Shown piece after piece: positions 193 through 15,846 of a DNA stretch of 60,200 nt. The stretch is taken from assembly GCF_030730205.1 (NCBI RefSeq), contig NZ_JANQVQ010000288.1:1-60200 (forward strand), given 5' to 3'. A model generated the notes under the pieces. That model had not been told where the DNA came from. It made no database searches and worked only from the letters and a program-made list of their open reading frames with translations. Every line of letters begins with the position of its first letter. Position 1 is the stretch's first letter. Position numbers and translations under genes: made by a program. This DNA is from Paraglaciecola sp. (lineage in GTDB: Bacteria; Pseudomonadota; Gammaproteobacteria; Enterobacterales; Alteromonadaceae).

Positions 193-220
193 AAAAAAGG
201 TGGCTTATGCCACCTTTTTT
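193..220 (+). terminator. Rho-independent terminator after the PEP-CTERM gene
   Basis: A perfect hairpin: A6-GGTGGC, a TTAT loop, then GCCACC-T6. It sits 22 bases after the stop codon. An in-frame ATG of the following gene (base 207) lies in the loop/stem, which argues against that ATG being the real start. Confidence 0.9.
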
Positions 221-266
221 GTTCAAACTCTTGTTATATTTACTCGTAAAACTGAAGTTATTTTTT

Positions 267-3056
267 ATGCCACTAAAACTCATTGCTTTATTCTTTATTC
301 TTATATCCAGTCAATCTAACGCGTTAGCTAGCTCGTTGGGAGACTACGAAAAAGCCTTAACCTCTTATAATGCAAAAAAATACGATGAAGCGTTTATTCA
401 TTTAAAAAATAGCCTGCAACAAGACCCCGACAATTTGGCCGCTAAAATACTAATGGGGCAGATATTGTTGATTAACGGCTATTTAACCGCTGCGGAAGTT
501 GAATTTAACGAGGCCTTACAACAAGGAGCAGATATCAATATTATTGCCGAGCCTTTAGGTAATGCCCTGCTCTTTCAAAATAAATACCAAGAGATTTTGG
601 ATCTCAATTACACCGATAAGCTTATTGTAGAGCAAAAAGTAAAGTGGTTACTTATTCGAGCCACTGCCTGTGTCAGGTTAAAGCAATATGATTGTGCAAC
701 AACAACTTACAACGAAGCGTTAGCGTTAGATGCTAACAGCACCATGTCGTTAAACGGTTTAGCCGCGATTGCCTTGTTTCAAAAAAACTATAAGGCTGCC
801 GAAGGGTTTATTAACCAGTCCATGGCTATTTCACGCACTGAAGCCACAACCTGGCGACAAAAAGGCCAATTATCGCGCGCGATGGGTAACATCGACCAAG
901 CGATAGATGAATTACAACAAGCGCTCAAATTAAACAGCAATGATCCACTGACCTTGCGTAGTTTGGCCGATTTATATTTAGAAAGTAATGACTTTGATGG
1001 GGCTCGAACCTTCGTAAATGAAATTATCGAAAAAACCCCTGATGATCCACTGGCAATATTGTTAAGTAGCTGGTTAGACAGTAAAGACAAAAGCAAACCG
1101 GTAAATAATGAGCGTTTAGACAGGTTGAATAACATACTATCAAGCCTTGGGCCTGATGTTATCGCTGCGCAACCAGAGCTACTTTACATTAGCGGATTAA
1201 CCGCCTTTTTTAATGGAAATACCGAACAAGCGTCTAAAGATTTTGCAAAATACCTAACTAAGAACCCGAATGACATGCAAGCCGTTATTTTGCTCAGTCG
1301 CACTTACATGGCAACGCAGCAAAACAAACAGGCCTTATTATTGTTAGAAAAGTATCAAAGTAAGTTACTTGAAAACTTAGACTCAGCACTTTTACTCGGC
1401 GAGTTATTTATTAACTCTAACCGTGCCTTTAAAGCACAAAGTTTATTAGATGAGCTTGAACCGCTTTACCCTAATGACTCTCGCCTGCAATTATTTAAAA
1501 TTAAACTGATGATGGTGCGGGGTAAACAAGAAGAAGCGTTGGCTATCTTAGACAAGGGTTTAGCACAGAACATCAAAAATCCAACGTATTTGTTCACCTA
1601 CAGTATGCTGAACCTACAAGGGAATAAAAAAGAAAAAGCCCTCGACGGTGCCAATGCCTTAATCAAGTTGTATCCAGATGATGCTAACTTTCTTAATTTG
1701 AAAGCGGGAATTCTTATTCGCTTAAACAAGCTTGATGAGGCCATCGTCTTAATTGAAAAAACCTTGAGTCTTGAGCCTAATTTGTTTCCTGCAAAATTTA
1801 ACTTAGCGTCTATTTATAGCCGCAAGGGCGAGTTGGCTAAATCAAATAACTTAATTGAAAGCTTACTTGCGGTATCACCTACTCACCTGCAAGTTCTAAC
1901 GTTAAAAGCCCATAATTTAGTGGCTGATGGTCAGTTAGATAACGCCATTGCGCTGTATAGCGACATAATTGTATTAAACCCTCGCGATCAGTACGCAAAA
2001 AGTCAGTTGGCTACTATTTATATGCGTATGGGTAACTATGAAAGTGCGTTGTATCATGTTGACCGCTTGTTAGCAGAAAACTTTGATAACGCTGAATATC
2101 AACTGCAAAAAGCACAAATTTTACTGCCTTTAAAACGCTTCACTGAGCTTGATGAAATATTAAAACGGGTCAGTCTGTTTAGTGATTTACCTATTGAGTC
2201 ATTGATACTCACTAGCCAATTACAAAGAGCCATTAAGGATTACACTGGCGCAATTCGCTCACTCACTAGCGCTGAAACATTAGCGCCCAACAATACCTAC
2301 ATCACTCTAGATAAAGTGAAGCTATTGATCGAGTCTTCTCAGCTTGATGAAGCCGCAGCCATTATTAGCCGTATTGAATCAGCTAATCAAAAAAATGCTA
2401 ACTTTTGGCTGATTAAAGCACTGTATGCTAATGCGCTTAAAAGCGAATCAAATGCTGTTAAATATTTAAAAACAGCGTTAGAGCTTGATCCTAATTTTCA
2501 TCAAGCCTTAATTATCTTGTATGACATGAGTATTCGTGGAAGCCAAGAAACAGACTTTGTGAAACAAGCGAGAAAATTGCTTGAGATCAACCCGAAAAAC
2601 ATCTTGGCAAAAAATTTACTGGCGCAGTTTTATTACATACAGCAAGACTTTGCCCAAGCCTCAGCTTTATATAAAGCACTTCTGGAAGCAGAAGTACAAA
2701 TTAACAAGGCAGAAATATACAATAAGCTCGCCATCATGAGCCTAGAAGATGACCTGCAGCAAAGCGCAAACTACATTGAACAGGCCTTTGCATTAAATGA
2801 AAACAACGCCAAAATCCTCGATACTTACGGATGGGTATTAAGCCTGCAAGGCTGGTACGAAGAAGGATTAGGCTTATTGCGCAAAGCCTACGCCCGTGAT
2901 GCAAACAGTCCTGAAATTAGATACCACATCGGTTATACCCTAATTAAATTAGGGCGACTGGAAGAAGCTAAAAATGAACTGACTATGGCTGTTAATGTTC
3001 AACGCCCCTTTTACAATCGCCCTAAAGCACAGGCTTTACTCGATAGTATCAAATAG
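267..3056 (+). CDS. prsT: PEP-CTERM system TPR-repeat protein PrsT
   Basis: A 929-residue protein of tandem tetratricopeptide repeats after an N-terminal signal sequence (MPLKLIALFFILISS, likely cleaved after SNALA). The first repeats (YEKALTSYNAKKYDEAFIHL, then LKNSLQQDPDNLAAKILMGQ) closely resemble the start of PrsT proteins found with exosortase/EPS loci; family members are usually about 900 residues, so it is full length. Many family members are lipoproteins, but no lipobox cysteine is visible here, so it is more likely a periplasmic protein. TPR arrays bind other proteins; a role in export or sorting of PEP-CTERM proteins or polysaccharide is inferred from family context. The longer frame from 207 starts inside the preceding terminator, so 267 is preferred. 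No exosortase gene is in view, so the rest of the system must lie elsewhere. Confidence 0.8.
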   Translation: MPLKLIALFFILISSQSNALASSLGDYEKALTSYNAKKYDEAFIHLKNSLQQDPDNLAAKILMGQILLINGYLTAAEVEFNEALQQGADINIIAEPLGNALLFQNKYQEILDLNYTDKLIVEQKVKWLLIRATACVRLKQYDCATTTYNEALALDANSTMSLNGLAAIALFQKNYKAAEGFINQSMAISRTEATTWRQKGQLSRAMGNIDQAIDELQQALKLNSNDPLTLRSLADLYLESNDFDGARTFVNEIIEKTPDDPLAILLSSWLDSKDKSKPVNNERLDRLNNILSSLGPDVIAAQPELLYISGLTAFFNGNTEQASKDFAKYLTKNPNDMQAVILLSRTYMATQQNKQALLLLEKYQSKLLENLDSALLLGELFINSNRAFKAQSLLDELEPLYPNDSRLQLFKIKLMMVRGKQEEALAILDKGLAQNIKNPTYLFTYSMLNLQGNKKEKALDGANALIKLYPDDANFLNLKAGILIRLNKLDEAIVLIEKTLSLEPNLFPAKFNLASIYSRKGELAKSNNLIESLLAVSPTHLQVLTLKAHNLVADGQLDNAIALYSDIIVLNPRDQYAKSQLATIYMRMGNYESALYHVDRLLAENFDNAEYQLQKAQILLPLKRFTELDEILKRVSLFSDLPIESLILTSQLQRAIKDYTGAIRSLTSAETLAPNNTYITLDKVKLLIESSQLDEAAAIISRIESANQKNANFWLIKALYANALKSESNAVKYLKTALELDPNFHQALIILYDMSIRGSQETDFVKQARKLLEINPKNILAKNLLAQFYYIQQDFAQASALYKALLEAEVQINKAEIYNKLAIMSLEDDLQQSANYIEQAFALNENNAKILDTYGWVLSLQGWYEEGLGLLRKAYARDANSPEIRYHIGYTLIKLGRLEEAKNELTMAVNVQRPFYNRPKAQALLDSIK

Positions 3057-8641: not shown

Positions 8642-9325
8642 CTAAAAAAATAAATGGCTGAATGGGTTCAACAGTCTGGCTATACCCGAAGTGAAATACA
8701 GCGGCTTATCGACGATGGTAAACACTAAACAACCTTCGTCTGCTTCAGAATGAGGCAAATGATTATGGGTACCATCAAGCAAAGTAAAATCGCCGCAATC
8801 GTAATTTGCAACGCCATCTCCATACTGCCCATCGATCACTAGCGTCATCTCTGAACCTTTATGAGTGTGCTCTGGAACCTTGCCTCCCTTCTCCATGTAT
8901 ATAAAGTTGGCCTTGCCCATACACCCTAAATCAACTGGAGCTTGCCATAACTTGCCTACTAAACGAGACCAATTACCTGTGTGCTTAGCATATCGTTTCA
9001 AGGTCCTGGGCAATACAAAACGCTTACCTTCAAGCTCGATGTCGAAATGACTCAAGCCAGATCCTTCGAAAGGTGAGTCTGCGATTAGCGTTTTTTGTTG
9101 CTGAGGCAACTGGGTGATGCGAGAAAACATTTTGTCAAGCTCGGGTGTTCTGGCCACCGGCGAACTAAATGCATCAATGGTTTCTACATGTTGTAATTTC
9201 AAACACTTAGCTTGGCACTCTGCACATAGATCCGTATGAGCTGAGATCATTAGCGCTAGAGTTGGCTCACACACACCAGAGACAAAAGCATTTAACTGTT
9301 GCGAGGTTGGATGGTGCTTAATCAT
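8642..9325 (-). CDS. chrR: ChrR-type zinc anti-sigma factor with cupin domain
   Basis: Two-domain anti-sigma factor that holds its partner sigma inactive until a signal such as singlet oxygen releases it. The N-terminal anti-sigma domain carries the zinc motif H-x3-C-x2-C (His30, Cys34, Cys37) plus early histidines (His4/His5). The C-terminal half is a cupin with the signature VPEHTHKGSEMTLVIDG. The start at 9325 overlaps the end of the sigma gene by 8 bases, indicating translational coupling; a further in-frame ATG lies at 9334. This sigma/anti-sigma pair resembles Rhodobacter sphaeroides RpoE-ChrR. Confidence 0.9.
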   Translation of the reverse strand: MIKHHPTSQQLNAFVSGVCEPTLALMISAHTDLCAECQAKCLKLQHVETIDAFSSPVARTPELDKMFSRITQLPQQQKTLIADSPFEGSGLSHFDIELEGKRFVLPRTLKRYAKHTGNWSRLVGKLWQAPVDLGCMGKANFIYMEKGGKVPEHTHKGSEMTLVIDGQYGDGVANYDCGDFTLLDGTHNHLPHSEADEGCLVFTIVDKPLYFTSGIARLLNPFSHLFF

Positions 9326-9932
9326 TAGTATCAATCATCTCTTTCAATCTTTGTAAGGCTAAACGGGTTCTTGATTTCACCGTTCCCAAGGGAATGTTCA
9401 TCTCGTCAGCCACTTCTTGTTGCGACTTGCCTTCTATGTAAATCGCTTCAATGACCGCCTTCTGCTTATCTGGGAGCGATTCAAACAATATGCCTATCTC
9501 GTCCATCGTTACTTGGTGATCATGAGACACTTCATTAACGTCGGCGGTCTGTTCGCACAATATTGGCCACAAGTCGTCGGCACAAATATCTTCCTTACGG
9601 TTTCTTAACTTACGAAGTAAATCAAAGCGAATATTTCGAGCTATTGTAAAGATCCACGTAGACGCAGAACCCTTGGATGCGTCAAACAAATGCGCTTTTT
9701 GCCACACATTTGCCATTGTGTCCTGCACCAACTCCATTGCGAGGGCTTCGTTACCCATCTGCTTTAACGAATACGACAGCAGCCTAGGAGCAAAATAATT
9801 AAAGACGTTGGCAAACGAGCGTTCACAACGTTTTTCTGCAACAGCACTTAAAAATGCAGCCATTTCATCGGCGCATTCTATCGGTTTAACAGAATGAGAG
9901 GACCTAGATTCCAAAGGTATTCCGACTAACAT
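9318..9932 (-). CDS. rpoE: ECF sigma factor, RpoE/ChrR (ECF11) type
   Basis: A 204-residue extracytoplasmic-function sigma factor. Region 2 is visible (YFAPRLLSYSLKQMGNEALA, then ELVQDTMANVWQKA and STWIFTIARNIRFDLLRK) and so is region 4 (LPDKQKAVIEAIYIEGKSQQ followed by EVADEMNIPLGTVKSRTRLA). Its overlap with the cupin-type ChrR gene identifies the subgroup. In Rhodobacter this pair controls the response to singlet oxygen. A TGATCC promoter lies just upstream and overlaps the stop codon of the preceding gene, consistent with autoregulation. It should drive the divergent lipid operon and the LON-domain gene, inferred from matching promoter sites. Confidence 0.92.
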   Translation of the reverse strand: MLVGIPLESRSSHSVKPIECADEMAAFLSAVAEKRCERSFANVFNYFAPRLLSYSLKQMGNEALAMELVQDTMANVWQKAHLFDASKGSASTWIFTIARNIRFDLLRKLRNRKEDICADDLWPILCEQTADVNEVSHDHQVTMDEIGILFESLPDKQKAVIEAIYIEGKSQQEVADEMNIPLGTVKSRTRLALQRLKEMIDTND

Positions 9933-9960: not shown

Positions 9961-9990
9961 CTTATACTGGGGTTAACTAAAAAAGGATCA
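9961..9990 (-). promoter_or_regulatory. Predicted ECF-sigma promoter of rpoE-chrR (autoregulation)
   Basis: Minus strand: TGATCC (9990-9985), 16-base spacer, AGTATAAG (9968-9961). TGATCC is the -35 typical of RpoE/ChrR-type sigma factors. The -35 shares its TGA with the stop codon of the LON-domain gene; the likely 5' leader to the rpoE ATG is about 20-25 bases. Confidence 0.7.
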
Positions 9991-10560
9991 CTCCACCAAT
10001 TGTGTCAGAAAAGAGAGGGCTTTCATACAATCTTTATCTTTTAACAATTGTTGCTTTTGTTCAGCGTTGACAGGGATCAACTCTAACCAGCGGTAAATGA
10101 CCCAAATAGGATCGTCGAAATGAGGGGTTTCATATAAATTTTTTAACTCATGATATTTTTCAAAAATCTCTACTAGGCGCTCGTTGATTGGGCTTAACAG
10201 TTGTTGATCTTCCGGCAACGTCCATTCTGTTAACCATTCAATTTGCCCCACCCGAAGGCCGTCTGCTTCGGTTTCAACTGATAAAATCTGAAAACATTGC
10301 TTACCCTCGACGGTGATGCCTAACATGCCATCAGGTAATAAATCAAAGTCAACGACTTTTGCATATGTCCCTATTGGAAAAATGTGTTCGTTAGTCTCCT
10401 TAGCACCTTTGGCATTAAACATACATATACCAATACCGGTGTCATTAGCACACGCTTCTTTCACCATCCGAACATATCGCGGTTCGAAAATACGCAACTG
10501 AAGACGCCCGCCTGGCAGTACATGCGCTGATAGTGGAAAAAAAGGGATTATGGGTTTCAT
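9988..10560 (-). CDS. LON substrate-binding-domain protein (no protease domain)
   Basis: A protein of about 190 residues consisting of the N-terminal domain of Lon only (PIIPFFPLSAHVLPGGRLQL, then RIFEPRYVRMV). No AAA+ or Ser-Lys protease domain follows. Stand-alone LON-domain proteins are widespread and poorly characterised; substrate recognition or an adaptor role is inference. The start at 10560 is preferred over the first ATG at 10581, because the predicted ECF promoter ends at 10597 and would leave almost no leader for the earlier ATG. It runs into the rpoE-chrR unit on the same strand. Confidence 0.8.
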   Translation of the reverse strand: MKPIIPFFPLSAHVLPGGRLQLRIFEPRYVRMVKEACANDTGIGICMFNAKGAKETNEHIFPIGTYAKVVDFDLLPDGMLGITVEGKQCFQILSVETEADGLRVGQIEWLTEWTLPEDQQLLSPINERLVEIFEKYHELKNLYETPHFDDPIWVIYRWLELIPVNAEQKQQLLKDKDCMKALSFLTQLVE

Positions 10561-10596
10561 ATATGTACAAAGCTTACTCATTTATTGATGATATCT

Positions 10597-10624
10597 GTTA
10601 CGCCACCTCAATGAGAATGGATCG
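10597..10624 (-). promoter_or_regulatory. Predicted ECF-sigma promoter of the LON-domain gene
   Basis: Minus strand: CGATCC (10624-10619), 16-base spacer, CGTAACAG (10602 downward). It has the same geometry as the sites before rpoE and the SDR gene, with one mismatch in the -35. Confidence 0.55.
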
Positions 10625-10653
10625 CTATTAATAATTAAACTCTTTTGTAAATA

Positions 10654-10681
10654 TGATCTCAATTAAAGTGTATAAGGTATT
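10654..10681 (+). promoter_or_regulatory. Predicted ECF-sigma promoter of the lipid operon
   Basis: TGATCT (10654-10659), 16-base spacer, GGTATT (10676-10681). This is the third site of the same form in the cluster and points into the six-gene operon, about 65 bases before its first ATG. Confidence 0.6.
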
Positions 10682-10745: not shown

Positions 10746-11468
10746 ATGAAAACAATGTTAATAACGGGAGCAACATCGGGCATCGGGCAAACCTTGGCAA
10801 TACAGGCTGCCGACACTGGCTACCACGTTATTGCCTGTGGACGCAACAAAGCCAAATTAGATGAGCTTGCAGCCCATAAAAATATTGAGTCCCTTGCCTT
10901 CGACGTTAGTGACCTGCAAGAAAGTAAGGATGCATTAGCCAGTATCAAGGCTGATATTTATGTATTCAACGCCGGTGTGTGTGAGTATGTGGATGTGAAG
11001 AGATTTGAATCGGCGTTATTTCATCGGGTTTTTGCTGCTAATTTCTTTGGTATCGTTCATTGCGTAGAAGCCATATTGCCTAAGCTGAAATCAGGCAATC
11101 AAATTGTAATCGTCGACAGCACAGCAAGATTATTACCTTTTACTCGAAGCCAAGCTTATGGCGCCAGTAAAGCAGCCCTGCATTATTTTATAAAAAGTCT
11201 CGAAGTCGATTTAGCTAACCGTCAGGTGCTTGTGCAAAGTGTGTCTCCTGGCTTTGTTGAAACACCTCTGACGGAAAAAAATGACTTCGACATGCCGATG
11301 AAAATTAGCGCTGAGCAAGCGGCAATAAGCATGTTAAAAGGCATAGAAAAACGTAAACGTAGTATTTATTTTCCATGGTTTTTTAGTTTGATACTACGCT
11401 TTTTGCATGTGCTGCCAAATAGTTGGCAAGTGGCTTTGTGTAAAAAGATGAAAGAACAAGAACAATAA
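10746..11468 (+). CDS. Short-chain dehydrogenase/reductase (SDR)
   Basis: A 240-residue NAD(P)-dependent oxidoreductase. The Rossmann motif is at the N-terminus (ITGATSGIGQT, the TGxxxGxG type), NAG is in the NADP-binding region, and the catalytic Ser...Tyr-x3-Lys appears as DSTARLLPFTRSQAYGASKA. The substrate is unknown. It is the first gene of a tightly packed operon with a FAD oxidoreductase and a cyclopropane-synthase-like enzyme, so a lipid substrate is likely by context. Similar SDR genes occur beside CFA-like genes under RpoE-ChrR control in Rhodobacter. The end has basic and hydrophobic residues, perhaps for membrane contact. Confidence 0.88.
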   Translation: MKTMLITGATSGIGQTLAIQAADTGYHVIACGRNKAKLDELAAHKNIESLAFDVSDLQESKDALASIKADIYVFNAGVCEYVDVKRFESALFHRVFAANFFGIVHCVEAILPKLKSGNQIVIVDSTARLLPFTRSQAYGASKAALHYFIKSLEVDLANRQVLVQSVSPGFVETPLTEKNDFDMPMKISAEQAAISMLKGIEKRKRSIYFPWFFSLILRFLHVLPNSWQVALCKKMKEQEQ

Positions 11469-11484
11469 TTAAGGAAATCAATAG

Positions 11485-12747
11485 ATGGACAAAAAAATTG
11501 CAATTATCGGCTCTGGTATTTCAGGTTTAACCTGTGCCCACCTATTGCATCAAGAACACGACATCAGCGTATTTGAATCCAATGACTACATTGGTGGCCA
11601 CACTGCAACCAAAGACGTTGAGATCAATGGCCAGCACTATGCGATTGATACAGGTTTTATCGTATTCAATGATTGGACCTATCCTAATTTCATCAAGTTA
11701 ATGGATAAGTTAGGGGTAAAATCTCAACCAACAGAGATGAGTTTTAGTGTAAAAAACAGCGCCCAAAACTTGGAATATAACGGCAACACACTCAATAGTT
11801 TATTTGCTCAACGTCGAAACGTATTACGACCCAAGTTTTGGCGTATTGTCCGAGACATCCTAAAATTTAACAAATTATGTAAACGTAATGCGGCGCAAGC
11901 GACTGATTATGGTGATATGACCCTGTTTGAATTTATTCAGCAGCACAAACTCAGTGAAGACTTTGCCTACAACTACATCTTGCCCATGTGCGCCGCTATT
12001 TGGTCTACCAGTCTAGAAGACATCAAAGCCTTTCCTTTTCAGTTTTTCCTCAAATTTTTCAATAACCATGGTTTATTGAATATAACTGATCGGCCACAGT
12101 GGTACAGCATTGTAGGCGGTTCAAGAAGCTACATTGCGCCACTGACTCAAGGTTTTGAAGACAAAATTTTCCTCAATAGCGCCGTTACATCTGTCGCAAC
12201 TAACGATAGCGGCTACACCGTTACTGTGAATCAAGTCGAGCACTATTTTGACGAGGTTATTTTTGCCTGCCACAGTGACCAAGCTCTGCGCTTACTAGCT
12301 GAGCCCAGTGAATTACAACAAGACATACTCGGCAGTATCCGATATGCCAAAAACGATGTGGTTTTGCACACCGATACTAGTGTGCTGCCCACACGAAAGT
12401 TAGCGTGGGCTAGCTGGAACTATTCACTCACCGGCGACAAAGACGAGCAAAGTGCGCCCGCCGTATTAAGTTACAACATGAACATTTTGCAAAGATTAGA
12501 ATCAAGCACGACTTTTTGCGTCACCCTGAATAATACAGCGGCAATCGATCCGAACAAAATACTGGGCCAGTATTCCTATGCTCATCCGCAATTTGATCAA
12601 AAAGCTATTTCTGCTCAAGCTCGGCATAAACATATTTCAGGCCAACACGGTTTACATTTTTGTGGGGCGTATTGGTACAATGGATTTCACGAAGATGGGG
12701 TTCGTAGTGCCTTAGATGTCTGTGCTGAATTTGGCGTGTCGCTGTAA
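11485..12747 (+). CDS. FAD-dependent oxidoreductase (amine-oxidase/desaturase-like)
   Basis: A 420-residue flavoprotein. The dinucleotide-binding motif IAIIGSGISGLTCAHLL and the following ESNDYIGGHTATKDV (acidic end of beta-2 plus the GG motif) mark the NAD(P)-binding-8/amine-oxidase fold. A C-terminal FAD block is seen as LHFCGAYWYNGFHEDGVRSA. In homologous clusters this gene sits next to a DUF1365 protein and a CFA-like synthase, and a redox step on membrane fatty-acyl chains is the best inference. The stop and the next start overlap by one base (TAATG), indicating translational coupling. Confidence 0.88.
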   Translation: MDKKIAIIGSGISGLTCAHLLHQEHDISVFESNDYIGGHTATKDVEINGQHYAIDTGFIVFNDWTYPNFIKLMDKLGVKSQPTEMSFSVKNSAQNLEYNGNTLNSLFAQRRNVLRPKFWRIVRDILKFNKLCKRNAAQATDYGDMTLFEFIQQHKLSEDFAYNYILPMCAAIWSTSLEDIKAFPFQFFLKFFNNHGLLNITDRPQWYSIVGGSRSYIAPLTQGFEDKIFLNSAVTSVATNDSGYTVTVNQVEHYFDEVIFACHSDQALRLLAEPSELQQDILGSIRYAKNDVVLHTDTSVLPTRKLAWASWNYSLTGDKDEQSAPAVLSYNMNILQRLESSTTFCVTLNNTAAIDPNKILGQYSYAHPQFDQKAISAQARHKHISGQHGLHFCGAYWYNGFHEDGVRSALDVCAEFGVSL

Positions 12748-13475
12748 TGCATGATGCAATATACAGCGGTCAAGTCATGCATGCGCGGTTTATTCCCAAA
12801 CAGCATCGGTTTAGTTATCGGATTAATTTGTTTTGGTTAGATCTCACTAAACTCGAAGAAACCGTGTCGGCACTCAGCTGGTTTTCAACAAAAAAGTTTG
12901 CTCCTATCCAATTCAGGCGCAGTGACTTTCTAGGTGACCCAGAACGCTTGCTACAAGACTGTGTGATCGAGAAAATGTCAGAGCTAGCAGGTAAACCGCT
13001 CGCAGGAAAGGTATATTTACTGAGCCCAATGCGAACTTTCGGTTTGTATTTCAGTCCAGTTAATTTCTACTACTTACAAGACCAAAGTGGTTATTACAGT
13101 CATCTTCTGGCAGAAGTTAGCAATACGCCATGGAACGAGAGACATTGTTATTTAGTTGATTTATCAGAGCAAAAAGACAGTCAAAAAGTTTTTCATGTAT
13201 CGCCCTTCAACCCTATTGATATGCAATACAAATGGAAAATTGAGCAACCTGCTGAATATCTAAAATTAAGCCTTGCTTGTCATCGAGAAACAAAACACTT
13301 TGTGGCCAATATTAATTTATCCCGTAAAGAATTGAACTCTCACAACCTTAAACGCGTAGTAATCAATATTCCCTTTATGACGTTAAAAACAGTAGTAGGA
13401 ATTTACTGGCAAGCGCTCAAGCTTTTTATTAAGGGCATGCCTATTTATTCTCATCCAGCACAAGGTAAACAGTAG
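12747..13475 (+). CDS. DUF1365 family protein
   Basis: A 242-residue member of DUF1365. The characteristic start (YSGQVMHARFIPKQHRFSYR) and the block SPVNFYYLQDQSGYYSHLLA followed by EVSNTPWNERHCY are present. The biochemical role is unsettled, but the gene almost always accompanies a FAD oxidoreductase and a CFA-like methyltransferase, as here, so it probably acts in the same lipid modification. Starts on the last base of the preceding stop codon and ends 2 bases before the next start. Confidence 0.9.
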   Translation: MHDAIYSGQVMHARFIPKQHRFSYRINLFWLDLTKLEETVSALSWFSTKKFAPIQFRRSDFLGDPERLLQDCVIEKMSELAGKPLAGKVYLLSPMRTFGLYFSPVNFYYLQDQSGYYSHLLAEVSNTPWNERHCYLVDLSEQKDSQKVFHVSPFNPIDMQYKWKIEQPAEYLKLSLACHRETKHFVANINLSRKELNSHNLKRVVINIPFMTLKTVVGIYWQALKLFIKGMPIYSHPAQGKQ

Positions 13476-13477
13476 TT

Positions 13478-14731
13478 ATGGTAAATGGAGAACAAACCCT
13501 CAACGCACCAAGAACCCAGACTTGGTCAGATAAGGTGTGCCGAAGCATTATGCTCAAAATCTTTGCGAGTTTGCCACAAGGGCAACTGGTGATTAAAGAA
13601 AAAGGCGTGCTGATCGACACCTTTGGTGAGCGTAACAGTGATTTGCATGCCGAAATTGATATTAACGACTTATCGACCTATAAAAGATTGCTTTTTGGCG
13701 GCAGTGTCGCTTCGGGAGAAACGTATACTGAAGGATTATGGACAACGCCAAATCTTACCAATGTTATTCGTATATTTGCCCGCAACCTTGACATGCTTGA
13801 TGCGTGGGAAGCAAAAATGGAATGGTTGGCGTTACCGCTGCGAAAAATAAAACATATTGCAAATAAGAACAGCCACAGCGGCGCCAAGAAAAATATTGCG
13901 GCCCATTACGATTTAGGGAATAAACTCTACACTCGATTTTTAGACAATAGCATGATGTATTCATCTGCTATTTACCCTCAAGCAGATGCCTCGTTAGAAC
14001 AAGCGCAGCATAATAAATTAAAGGTAATTTGCGATAAGTTACAGCTAACTGAAAATGACCATCTACTCGAGATTGGCACTGGGTGGGGCGGCCTTGCAGT
14101 ATTTGCAGCGAAACACTACGGCTGCAACGTGACAACAACAACGATTTCAGAAGAACAGCATGCTTATGCAAACGAATGGATTATAAAAGAAGGTTTGCAG
14201 GAAAAAGTTACCTTATTAAAGCAAGATTATCGATTGTTAGAAGGTCAATACGACAAACTGGTTTCTATTGAAATGATTGAAGCGGTAGGCAAAGAGTTTT
14301 TGCCCACCTTCTTCAAAAAGTGCTCAAGTTTATTAAAGAAACAAGGGGTCATGTTATTACAGGCAATCACCATTAATGACCAGCGCCTTGAAAGCTACAG
14401 CAAAAATGTCGACTTCATCCAAAAGCACATTTTTCCAGGTGGTTATCTACCCTCCCAATTATTGATTAACCAACATTTAAAGCGATACACCGATCTGATG
14501 ATCCGCGATTTGCACGACATCGGTTTGGATTACGCCAAAACCCTCCAAGACTGGCATCATCGTTTATTGGAAAATAGAGACGTTTTAGCCAATGATGGGT
14601 ACGACGAGCGCTTTATGAAGATGTGGCGCTACTATTTCAGTTATTGTGAAGGTGGTTTTTTAGAGCGGACCATCAGTACGGTACAATTGGTGGTCAGTAA
14701 ACCAGCATTTAGTGCCCCATTAGCCAGATAA
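13478..14731 (+). CDS. Cyclopropane-fatty-acyl-phospholipid synthase family methyltransferase
   Basis: A 417-residue SAM-dependent enzyme of the CFA synthase family, which adds a methylene or methyl group across double bonds of membrane phospholipid acyl chains. Seen: the family block AAHYDLGNKLYTRFLDNSMM followed by YSSAIY, the SAM motif LLEIGTGWGGLAVFAAKHYG, and the late region VDFIQKHIFPGGYLPS. Whether it makes cyclopropane, methylated or furan-precursor lipids cannot be told from sequence. Related enzymes occur in the RpoE-ChrR regulon of Rhodobacter, where modified lipids help against singlet oxygen. Coupled to both neighbours. Confidence 0.92.
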   Translation: MVNGEQTLNAPRTQTWSDKVCRSIMLKIFASLPQGQLVIKEKGVLIDTFGERNSDLHAEIDINDLSTYKRLLFGGSVASGETYTEGLWTTPNLTNVIRIFARNLDMLDAWEAKMEWLALPLRKIKHIANKNSHSGAKKNIAAHYDLGNKLYTRFLDNSMMYSSAIYPQADASLEQAQHNKLKVICDKLQLTENDHLLEIGTGWGGLAVFAAKHYGCNVTTTTISEEQHAYANEWIIKEGLQEKVTLLKQDYRLLEGQYDKLVSIEMIEAVGKEFLPTFFKKCSSLLKKQGVMLLQAITINDQRLESYSKNVDFIQKHIFPGGYLPSQLLINQHLKRYTDLMIRDLHDIGLDYAKTLQDWHHRLLENRDVLANDGYDERFMKMWRYYFSYCEGGFLERTISTVQLVVSKPAFSAPLAR

Positions 14732-15270
14732 TGAAGCCGATTATGCCCAGGACCAACATAGCGCGCTCCACCTTAACATCTGTGTTTATAGCGGTGTTCC
14801 TGCTGTGTAGTAGCATCAGTTTCGCCAACCCCATTGCTGATTTTAAAATGGTGGGCAAAGCAAAACTCGAAGTGCTTTTTTGGGACGTGTACCGCTCAGA
14901 GTTGTATACGCCCAGTGGCACTTTTGAGGCTAAAATTTTCCCTCAGGCTTTGAAAATCCATTACCTTCGGAACATCAAGTCTAAAGATTTAATCGAACGC
15001 ACCGACGAAGAGTGGCAAAAGCTCGGCATCAGCGCAACGCAAACCGCCCCTTGGCTTGAGCAGCTCACTGCTATTTGGCCAGATATCAAAAAGGGAGATG
15101 AGTTGTTGTTATTGGTCGACCAACAGCATCGCAGCCGCTTTTATTTTAATAACGACATCATAGGTGACATTGAAGATACGGACTTTGGTTTCAATTTCCT
15201 ACGTATTTGGCTGGACGAGAAATCCAGCTATCCCGACTTACAAAGGCAACTCATAGGAGAAAATAAATGA
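14731..15270 (+). CDS. Exported chalcone-isomerase-like protein
   Basis: A 179-residue protein with an N-terminal signal peptide (hydrophobic SVFIAVFLLCSSISFANP, probable cleavage after SFA), so it is likely periplasmic. The body (DFKMVGKAKLEVLFWDVYRS, then a block around KIHYLRNIKSKDLIE) matches the chalcone-isomerase-like family, whose fold can bind fatty acids; bacterial members have unknown function. The operon position suggests it handles a modified acyl product. Starts on the last base of the CFA stop codon; its own stop overlaps the next start (ATGA). Confidence 0.8.
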   Translation: MKPIMPRTNIARSTLTSVFIAVFLLCSSISFANPIADFKMVGKAKLEVLFWDVYRSELYTPSGTFEAKIFPQALKIHYLRNIKSKDLIERTDEEWQKLGISATQTAPWLEQLTAIWPDIKKGDELLLLVDQQHRSRFYFNNDIIGDIEDTDFGFNFLRIWLDEKSSYPDLQRQLIGENK

Positions 15271-15821
15271 ACATGAAGTTTGGTCTTGCTAGTGCCAGCT
15301 TATTGGTGTTAACGAGTTGCAGCAGCTCACTTGAAGACTATAACAATACAGGCCCTGCTTTTGAACTAAGCAGGTATTTTGATGGCAACGTTACTGCGTG
15401 GGGTATTGTTGAAGATTATTCAAAAAAATTGAGCCGCCGTTTTTGCGTCGATATCGTTGGCACATGGGAAGGCAACAAAGGCCAATTACACGAGACCTTC
15501 TACTACAACGATGGCGAAGAACAAATCCGAGTGTGGGAACTCAGCCAAGCTGACGATGGCAAGGTTACAGGCACTGCGGGTGACGTGGTAGGTCAAGCCT
15601 CAGGTAGTGAGAATGGCACGGCGTTTAATTGGAAATACACCTTACGGGTGCCTGTAGATGGGACTGAGTACGATCTTGCAGTAGACGACTGGATGTACAA
15701 GTTAGATGACAATCGAGTAATGAACCGCTCCTACATGAGTAAATTTGGAGTCACTGTGGCTGAAATATCCATATTTTTTGACAAGACGGCGCCGATAAGG
15801 GGCTGTAAATCAGTCAATTAA
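15267..15821 (+). CDS. DUF3833 lipoprotein
   Basis: A 184-residue lipoprotein: signal peptide with lipobox LVLTSC (Cys18), then a DUF3833 body rich in beta-strand (GPAFELSRYFDGNVTAWGIV, later VDDWMYKLDDNRVMNRSYMS). The fold looks lipocalin-like to me, but that is a guess. It is the last gene of the six-gene operon, with a 4-base overlap at its start and a clear terminator after it. A membrane-attached partner for the lipid-modifying enzymes is the likely role. Confidence 0.85.
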   Translation: MNMKFGLASASLLVLTSCSSSLEDYNNTGPAFELSRYFDGNVTAWGIVEDYSKKLSRRFCVDIVGTWEGNKGQLHETFYYNDGEEQIRVWELSQADDGKVTGTAGDVVGQASGSENGTAFNWKYTLRVPVDGTEYDLAVDDWMYKLDDNRVMNRSYMSKFGVTVAEISIFFDKTAPIRGCKSVN

Positions 15822-15824
15822 ACA

Positions 15825-15846
15825 GGGACCATACGGTCCCTTTTTT
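15825..15846 (+). terminator. Terminator of the lipid operon
   Basis: GGGACC-ATAC-GGTCCC followed by T6, just after the DUF3833 stop codon. The motB stop on the other strand is 13 bases further on. Confidence 0.9.

Follow-up and report, generated by a model that had tools for sequence, protein, structure and literature searches.

A probable, well-conserved Paraglaciecola-like version of the ECF11 RpoE-ChrR regulon with candidate sigma sites before rpoE, a LON-domain gene and a lipid operon

The window, that is, the whole stretch of 60,200 nucleotides of Paraglaciecola sp. DNA analysed here, contains a gene for a stand-alone LON-domain protein directly upstream of rpoE and on the same strand, followed by chrR, whose ORF overlaps that of rpoE, and a lipid operon that runs on the opposite strand (Table 1). 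The rpoE product carried sigma regions 2 and 4 only, as ECF sigma factors do. The chrR product scored 158.5 bits against a TIGR02451 cut-off of 124.5 (search run on ORF 8642-9334) and contained the motifs H-x3-C-x2-C (HTDLCAEC) and H-x-H-x3-E (HTHKGSE), which would correspond to the zinc-ligand patterns of the anti-sigma and cupin domains. For the LON gene, the Pfam search was performed with the 197-aa ORF 9988-10581, the likely start at 10560 being taken from the alignment of relatives, and neither the AAA+ ATPase nor the serine-lysine protease domain of the Lon protease was detected in this product. Genes of the UfaD, UfaO and UfaM kinds were consecutive in the operon (PF01593, PF07103 and PF02353, assigned by family and not by direct comparison with RSP1091, RSP1090 and RSP2144), suggesting that it likely carries the furan fatty acid genes ufaD, ufaO and ufaM. 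The ufaM-like protein scored 290 bits where one NCBIfam cyclopropane-synthase model requires 400, and 286 bits where the other requires 600. The scan that gave the hairpin after the operon found 9 terminator-like sites against 6.8 in shuffles.

Table 1. Genes and sequence features of the rpoE-chrR locus in the window
Feature	Position	Strand	Basis
chrR-like anti-sigma factor, cupin-type C-terminal domain	8642..9325	-	TIGR02451
rpoE-like ECF sigma factor, 204 aa	9318..9932	-	Sigma70_r2 and r4; NCBIfam NF008890 above cut-off
Sigma site before rpoE	9965..9990	-	TGATCC-N16-AGTA
LON substrate-binding-domain protein, stand-alone, 190 aa	9988..10560	-	PF02190 only
Sigma site before the LON-domain gene	10599..10624	-	CGATCC-N16-CGTA
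Sigma site before the lipid operon	10654..10679	+	TGATCT-N16-GGTA
Short-chain dehydrogenase (SDR), first operon gene here	10746..11468	+	PF00106
ufaD-like FAD-dependent oxidoreductase	11485..12747	+	PF01593; role by comparison with RSP1091
ufaO-like DUF1365 protein	12747..13475	+	PF07103
ufaM-like SAM-dependent fatty-acyl methyltransferase, CFA superfamily	13478..14731	+	PF02353
Chalcone isomerase-like (CHI) protein	14731..15270	+	PF16036
DUF3833 putative lipoprotein, last operon gene	15267..15821	+	PF12915
Terminator-like hairpin after the operon	15824..15841	both	consensus match only

The initial annotation had proposed three matching promoters for this sigma factor, and all three sites were found in the window sequence with the letters given and an identical 16-base spacer. 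The -35 elements of the LON and operon sites lay back to back, 29 nt apart. The distance from the -10 element to the start codon was about 32 nt for rpoE (ATG at 9932), about 38 nt for the LON gene (likely ATG at 10560) and about 66 nt for the SDR gene (ATG at 10746), and the TGA stop codon of the LON gene provided the first letters of the -35 element before rpoE, an overlap that 18 of the 47 rpoE-proximal sites in the named loci (described below) share. TGATCC had been given as the known -35 of RpoE/ChrR sigma factors, and TGATC indeed agreed with the motifs published for this sigma type, which are TGATCC-N16-CGTA in Shewanella oneidensis (PMC4336711) and Pseudomonas syringae (PMC5507510), and with TGATC-N16-18-CGTAW in Vibrio cholerae. 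The promoters matched one another in spacing and less so in their -10 boxes: the published CGTA was present at the LON site only, the rpoE site having AGTA and the operon site GGTA, both of them departures that recurred among relatives. The promoter of rpoE itself matched the ECF11 motif TGATCC-N16-CGTA in its -35 element and spacing, and its -10 element was off by one letter.

When the window was searched with YGATCY-N16-NGTA, 4 matches were obtained against 0.87 expected and none of 100 shuffles reached 4; the fourth match (1043-1068) falls within a 949-aa ORF (207-3056). The genome-wide motif scan that the initial annotation had named as a check gave no excess, since in 5.18 Mb we found 60 matches against 86 for the reversed control and, with the stricter TGATC-N16-18-CGTA, 45 against 62, so that neither motif was enriched. 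A hand calculation at the genome-wide density gives an expectation of about 0.002 for three correctly oriented matches within some 300 upstream nt, with a pattern that was fitted after the sites were known. Because the motif was not in excess genome-wide, the case rests on conservation among relatives, and no regulon list is claimed from the motif search.

Two sets of relatives were used; they share genomes, and the counts given for both ignore kinship. The first started from ChrR: of 247 genomes of the order, 108 gave a homologue, a figure that counts the window's own genome, and the stretches around the other 107 chrR loci were all collected. In 79 of these 107, the gene immediately upstream of rpoE was a LON gene with the same orientation, and in 7 more a LON gene of that orientation lay further upstream. 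Only 18 of 108 loci (a set that contains the window) had genes similar to both ufaD and ufaO within the stretch collected, so that LON is the steadier neighbour of rpoE-chrR in the order. The pattern [CT]GA[TA]C-N15-17-CGTA was found upstream of LON in 66/87 and upstream of rpoE in 83/108, a test that scores the rpoE site of the window and most of those of its nearest relatives as misses. The corresponding means for 200 permuted strict motifs were 0.13 and 0.14, with maxima of 3 and 2. Among spacings from 10 to 23, 16 was the commonest (53 in each set) and 15 the next. The operon-facing pattern TGATCY-N15-17-nGTA was present in all 17 divergent loci inspected (window, L064-L077, L080 and L192), including the nearest eight (8/8; permuted mean 0.08, maximum 4). 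No site was found upstream of the LON-like gene adjoining rpoE in L071-L077.

The second set was chosen by LON similarity among named genomes: of 451 LON relatives the best 80 were kept, most of them from Alteromonadaceae. In all 80, LON was followed downstream by rpoE-chrR, and lipid-operon genes ran on the other strand, a shared layout that is partly due to selection, as the closest 80 were taken. Conservation of the sites upstream of orthologues, the test on which the initial annotation had staked its proposal, was observed for most loci: nGATCY-N15-17-CGTA faced LON in 63/80 (failing in 17), TGATCY-N15-17-nGTA faced the operon in 71/80 (failing in 9) and TGATCn-N15-17-nGTA preceded rpoE in 47/80 (failing in 33), the last element being the one found in 83/108 of the wider set. 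All three sites were present in 29 loci and none in 1. The control regions gave few matches with the LON, operon and rpoE patterns, respectively: 0/71 for each upstream of bamD, 0, 0 and 1 of 80 upstream of chrR, 0, 1 and 1 of 80 for the DUF1365 gene, 0, 0 and 1 of 78 for the CFA-like gene, and 0, 4 and 5 of 80 for the FAD gene, with which the operon begins in some Paraglaciecola. One permuted operon motif scored 27/80, the next highest scoring 3; this motif, TTACG[CT]...GAT, agrees with the LON-facing site read from the other strand. The sites before LON and rpoE at first seemed to trade off against each other (Fisher p = 0.0002); this was dropped as an artefact, because our first LON pattern did not admit AGATCC and GGATCC with CGTA, which made up most of the LON misses and which nGATCY recovers.

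The gene content at the start of the operon varied among relatives. In many Alteromonas-type relatives the first gene was SnoaL/NTF2-like (a label given by sequence look and not by family search), and about 500-650 nt separate LON from the SDR gene in L064-L070, where such a gene sits. A search of the window's own genome, run without a positive control, gave no match to the SnoaL-like gene. Some Paraglaciecola had no SDR gene, and their operon starts at the ufaD-like gene.

The arrangement of the three sites bears on the transcription units. Because the LON gene is on the same strand about 55 nt upstream of rpoE, we count two transcription units and not three: LON-rpoE-chrR probably forms a single unit that has two starts, so that of the three promoters first proposed the three starts stand, and three separate units do not. 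The short gap (53-222 nt in the 80 named loci), the simple window scan, which detected nothing terminator-like in the interval from LON to rpoE, and the degenerate rpoE-proximal -35 of many Alteromonas, which keep the LON site (28/80 with the LON and operon sites only), would also suit a reading in which only the divergent LON/operon pair is real, rpoE is preceded by a mere relic, the AGTA site, and read-through from LON accounts for the autoregulation of rpoE-chrR. We regard this as improbable, given that a TGATCY site preceded rpoE in all seven Paraglaciecola-named loci (L243, L244, L245, L247, L249, L251 and L259), that rpoE-upstream sites are as frequent in the wider set as noted above, and that in S. 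oneidensis the rpoE2 start was mapped after such a site (PMC4336711). The -10 element in these seven loci was AGTA in five (including L251) and TGTA in two. The LON site was present in 6/7 and the operon site in 4/7, each of those four with GGTA; the operon-facing pattern was not found in L249, L251 and L259.

LON genes located away from rpoE-chrR allowed the site to be followed independently of the neighbourhood. LON homologues were detected in at least 135 of the 247 genomes, including genomes without chrR and second copies, and 40 genes of this kind were hand-picked, not drawn at random, among the matches listed. When the genome bore chrR and its best LON gene lay elsewhere, a site was found about 60 nt upstream of LON in 11 of 15, seven being TGATCn-N16-CGTA and four TGATCY-N16/17-GGTA, the latter from four chrR-bearing genomes of family f15. 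Upstream sites were found in 0/9 second LON copies that accompany an rpoE-linked copy in the same genome and in 0/16 genomes without detected chrR. In one batch of 20 of these genes, 3 matches came up and 2 were counted, as the match in L342 was inside the coding sequence and so was no upstream site; that in L350, at 166 nt upstream, was left out of the count, and L348, L349 and L351 had no site upstream of LON. L357, which lacks chrR and comes from the family that holds the GGTA group, had CGATCT at the matching place and no -10 element, which looks like decay. The site that follows the displaced LON gene is the best evidence that LON would be a member of the regulon and not a mere neighbour. 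A diverged LON-like gene also adjoins rpoE in L339, L340 and L343-L348. In one family (L071-L077, L339, L340 and L343-L347) this rpoE-adjacent gene had no site and the better-matching second LON elsewhere had one.

The sites before LON and the operon differed from the consensus at different ends. In the named set the operon site retained the TGATC -35 (by pattern), and the first letter of its -10 was not C in 65/71; the LON site retained CGTA (by pattern), and the first letter of its -35 was not T in 63/63. In the wider set of the order, that letter was T in 49/60 LON sites. These data suggest that the LON and operon promoters of Alteromonadaceae depart from the consensus in opposite, conserved ways, being weakened at different ends, and the departures may set promoter strength. 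The same two departures could be taken to mean that the sites serve another ECF sigma factor, or that GGTA and AGTA are read by a different one and the sigma factor of ChrR uses the LON site only; this seems very unlikely, as sigma factors of this type are known to use TGATC as their -35, binding and induction were reported in P. syringae for an aGATCC-CGTA site before phrB, no LON gene of the 16 chrR-less genomes had an upstream site, and GGTA sites precede LON in the four chrR-bearing f15 genomes. That the matches arose by chance in AT-rich intergenic DNA, as the genome-wide counts below the reversed controls might suggest, is scarcely credible: the permuted motifs, the scan of spacings and the controls on neighbouring genes all speak for conservation and contradict it, as does the dependence of the LON site on the presence of chrR.

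The locus was compared with three published regulons. In S. oneidensis (PMC4336711), the LON gene SO_1987 is numbered next to rpoE2, TGATC-N16-CGTA precedes both, rpoE2 expression raised the chrR and SO_1987 transcripts in qRT-PCR, and cfa is in the RpoE2-ChrR regulon; however, cfa and phrB are at a separate locus (SO_3374-SO_3386) with CGTA -10 elements, whereas in the window the lipid operon and LON are divergently arranged, and AGTA and GGTA stand in place of CGTA at two of the sites. In Rhodobacter sphaeroides (PMC3818230, PMC6852236, PMC7380195), rpoE-chrR is beside RSP_1091-1087 (ufaD, ufaO and others) and both operons have an RpoE-dependent promoter; singlet oxygen leads to degradation of ChrR, which requires RSP_1090 (UfaO, carrying DUF1365) and RSP_1091 (UfaD), and these two proteins together with UfaM make furan fatty acids. 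In contrast to the window, those descriptions of the regulon name no LON-domain gene, and ufaM (RSP2144) is located elsewhere and not inside the operon. In P. syringae (PMC5507510), binding data for PSPTO_1043-1042 gave the consensus TGATCCn16CGTA, aGATCC and cGATCg variants precede induced genes, and SDR, ufaD-, ufaO- and cfa-like genes share one locus, but this locus is apart from the sigma gene and the regulon lists seen in that source do not include a LON gene. The terms chrR and ECF were not found in the main text of the Alteromonas primary transcriptome paper (PMC5864184). The regulon idea is not new, then, induction of LON having been published for S. oneidensis and the neighbouring lipid operon for Rhodobacter.

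We read the locus as a well-conserved version, in Paraglaciecola-like form, of the singlet-oxygen regulon known from ECF11 RpoE-ChrR systems, and we estimate at roughly 0.88 the probability that it represents the Alteromonadaceae form of this singlet-oxygen/peroxide response, with the sigma factor driving the three sites. The basis is formed by the sites, their positions, their conservation and the gene families shown here. The use of the sites by the sigma factor, the read-through, the operon chemistry and the inducing signal are proposed from the corresponding regulons of R. sphaeroides, P. syringae and S. oneidensis. Inactivation of ChrR would release the sigma factor to start transcription at the three sites; one start, before LON, would read through LON-rpoE-chrR, a second one immediately before rpoE would provide positive autoregulation, and the divergent start would drive SDR-ufaD-ufaO-ufaM-CHI-DUF3833, whose products would make furan fatty acids. 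The proposal that one sigma factor drives itself, LON and the lipid operon most likely holds, being supported by the conservation of the sites in most relatives. It would mean that a large marine bacterial group has the published singlet-oxygen regulon, furan fatty acid genes included, with promoters of the same logic and with the LON-domain gene as a steady part.

A conserved LON partner beside rpoE-chrR is also a concrete candidate for a role in ChrR degradation outside Rhodobacter. Profile matches of the LON protein included the small LON-domain structures 7cay and 1zbo, cereblon (E ~1e-10) and Lon N-domains. Cereblon is a LON-domain substrate receptor, and a similar principle might apply here, the stand-alone LON protein being a dedicated adaptor of the circuit that recognises ChrR or oxidised ChrR and passes it to a protease or shields it. 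We consider this idea unlikely; if true, the regulon would make its own anti-sigma disposal part, which would explain why a protease-less LON is kept under the sigma factor even after relocation of the gene. In the PMC literature we found no paper proposing a role for LON in ChrR recognition or delivery, and among the papers listed only PMC4336711 joins both proteins, by regulon only.

To look at further members, the coding context of 78 sites from the two genome-wide searches (L001-L030, L164-L191 and L201-L220) was inspected; 27 were outside ORFs of at least 150 aa, and two of the genes concerned were plausible candidates, with weak conservation of their sites. The first, at L019:1501-1526 (C103 of the window's own genome), has TGATCC-N16-CGTA 46 nt before a secreted protein of at least 485 aa, presumably DUF4397/CHRD-like; homologues were present in 4/10 relatives, with a TGAACT-N16-CGTA site in 1/4. 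The second (L169) is a photolyase gene with TGATCA-N16-CGTA 36 nt before its ATG (L085:4319-4344, which equals C29:62318-62343 of the same genome), and its homologues were present in 10/10 relatives, 3/10 with a nearby site. The photolyase gene is likely a further member, and the regulon would not be the purely local one described at the outset.
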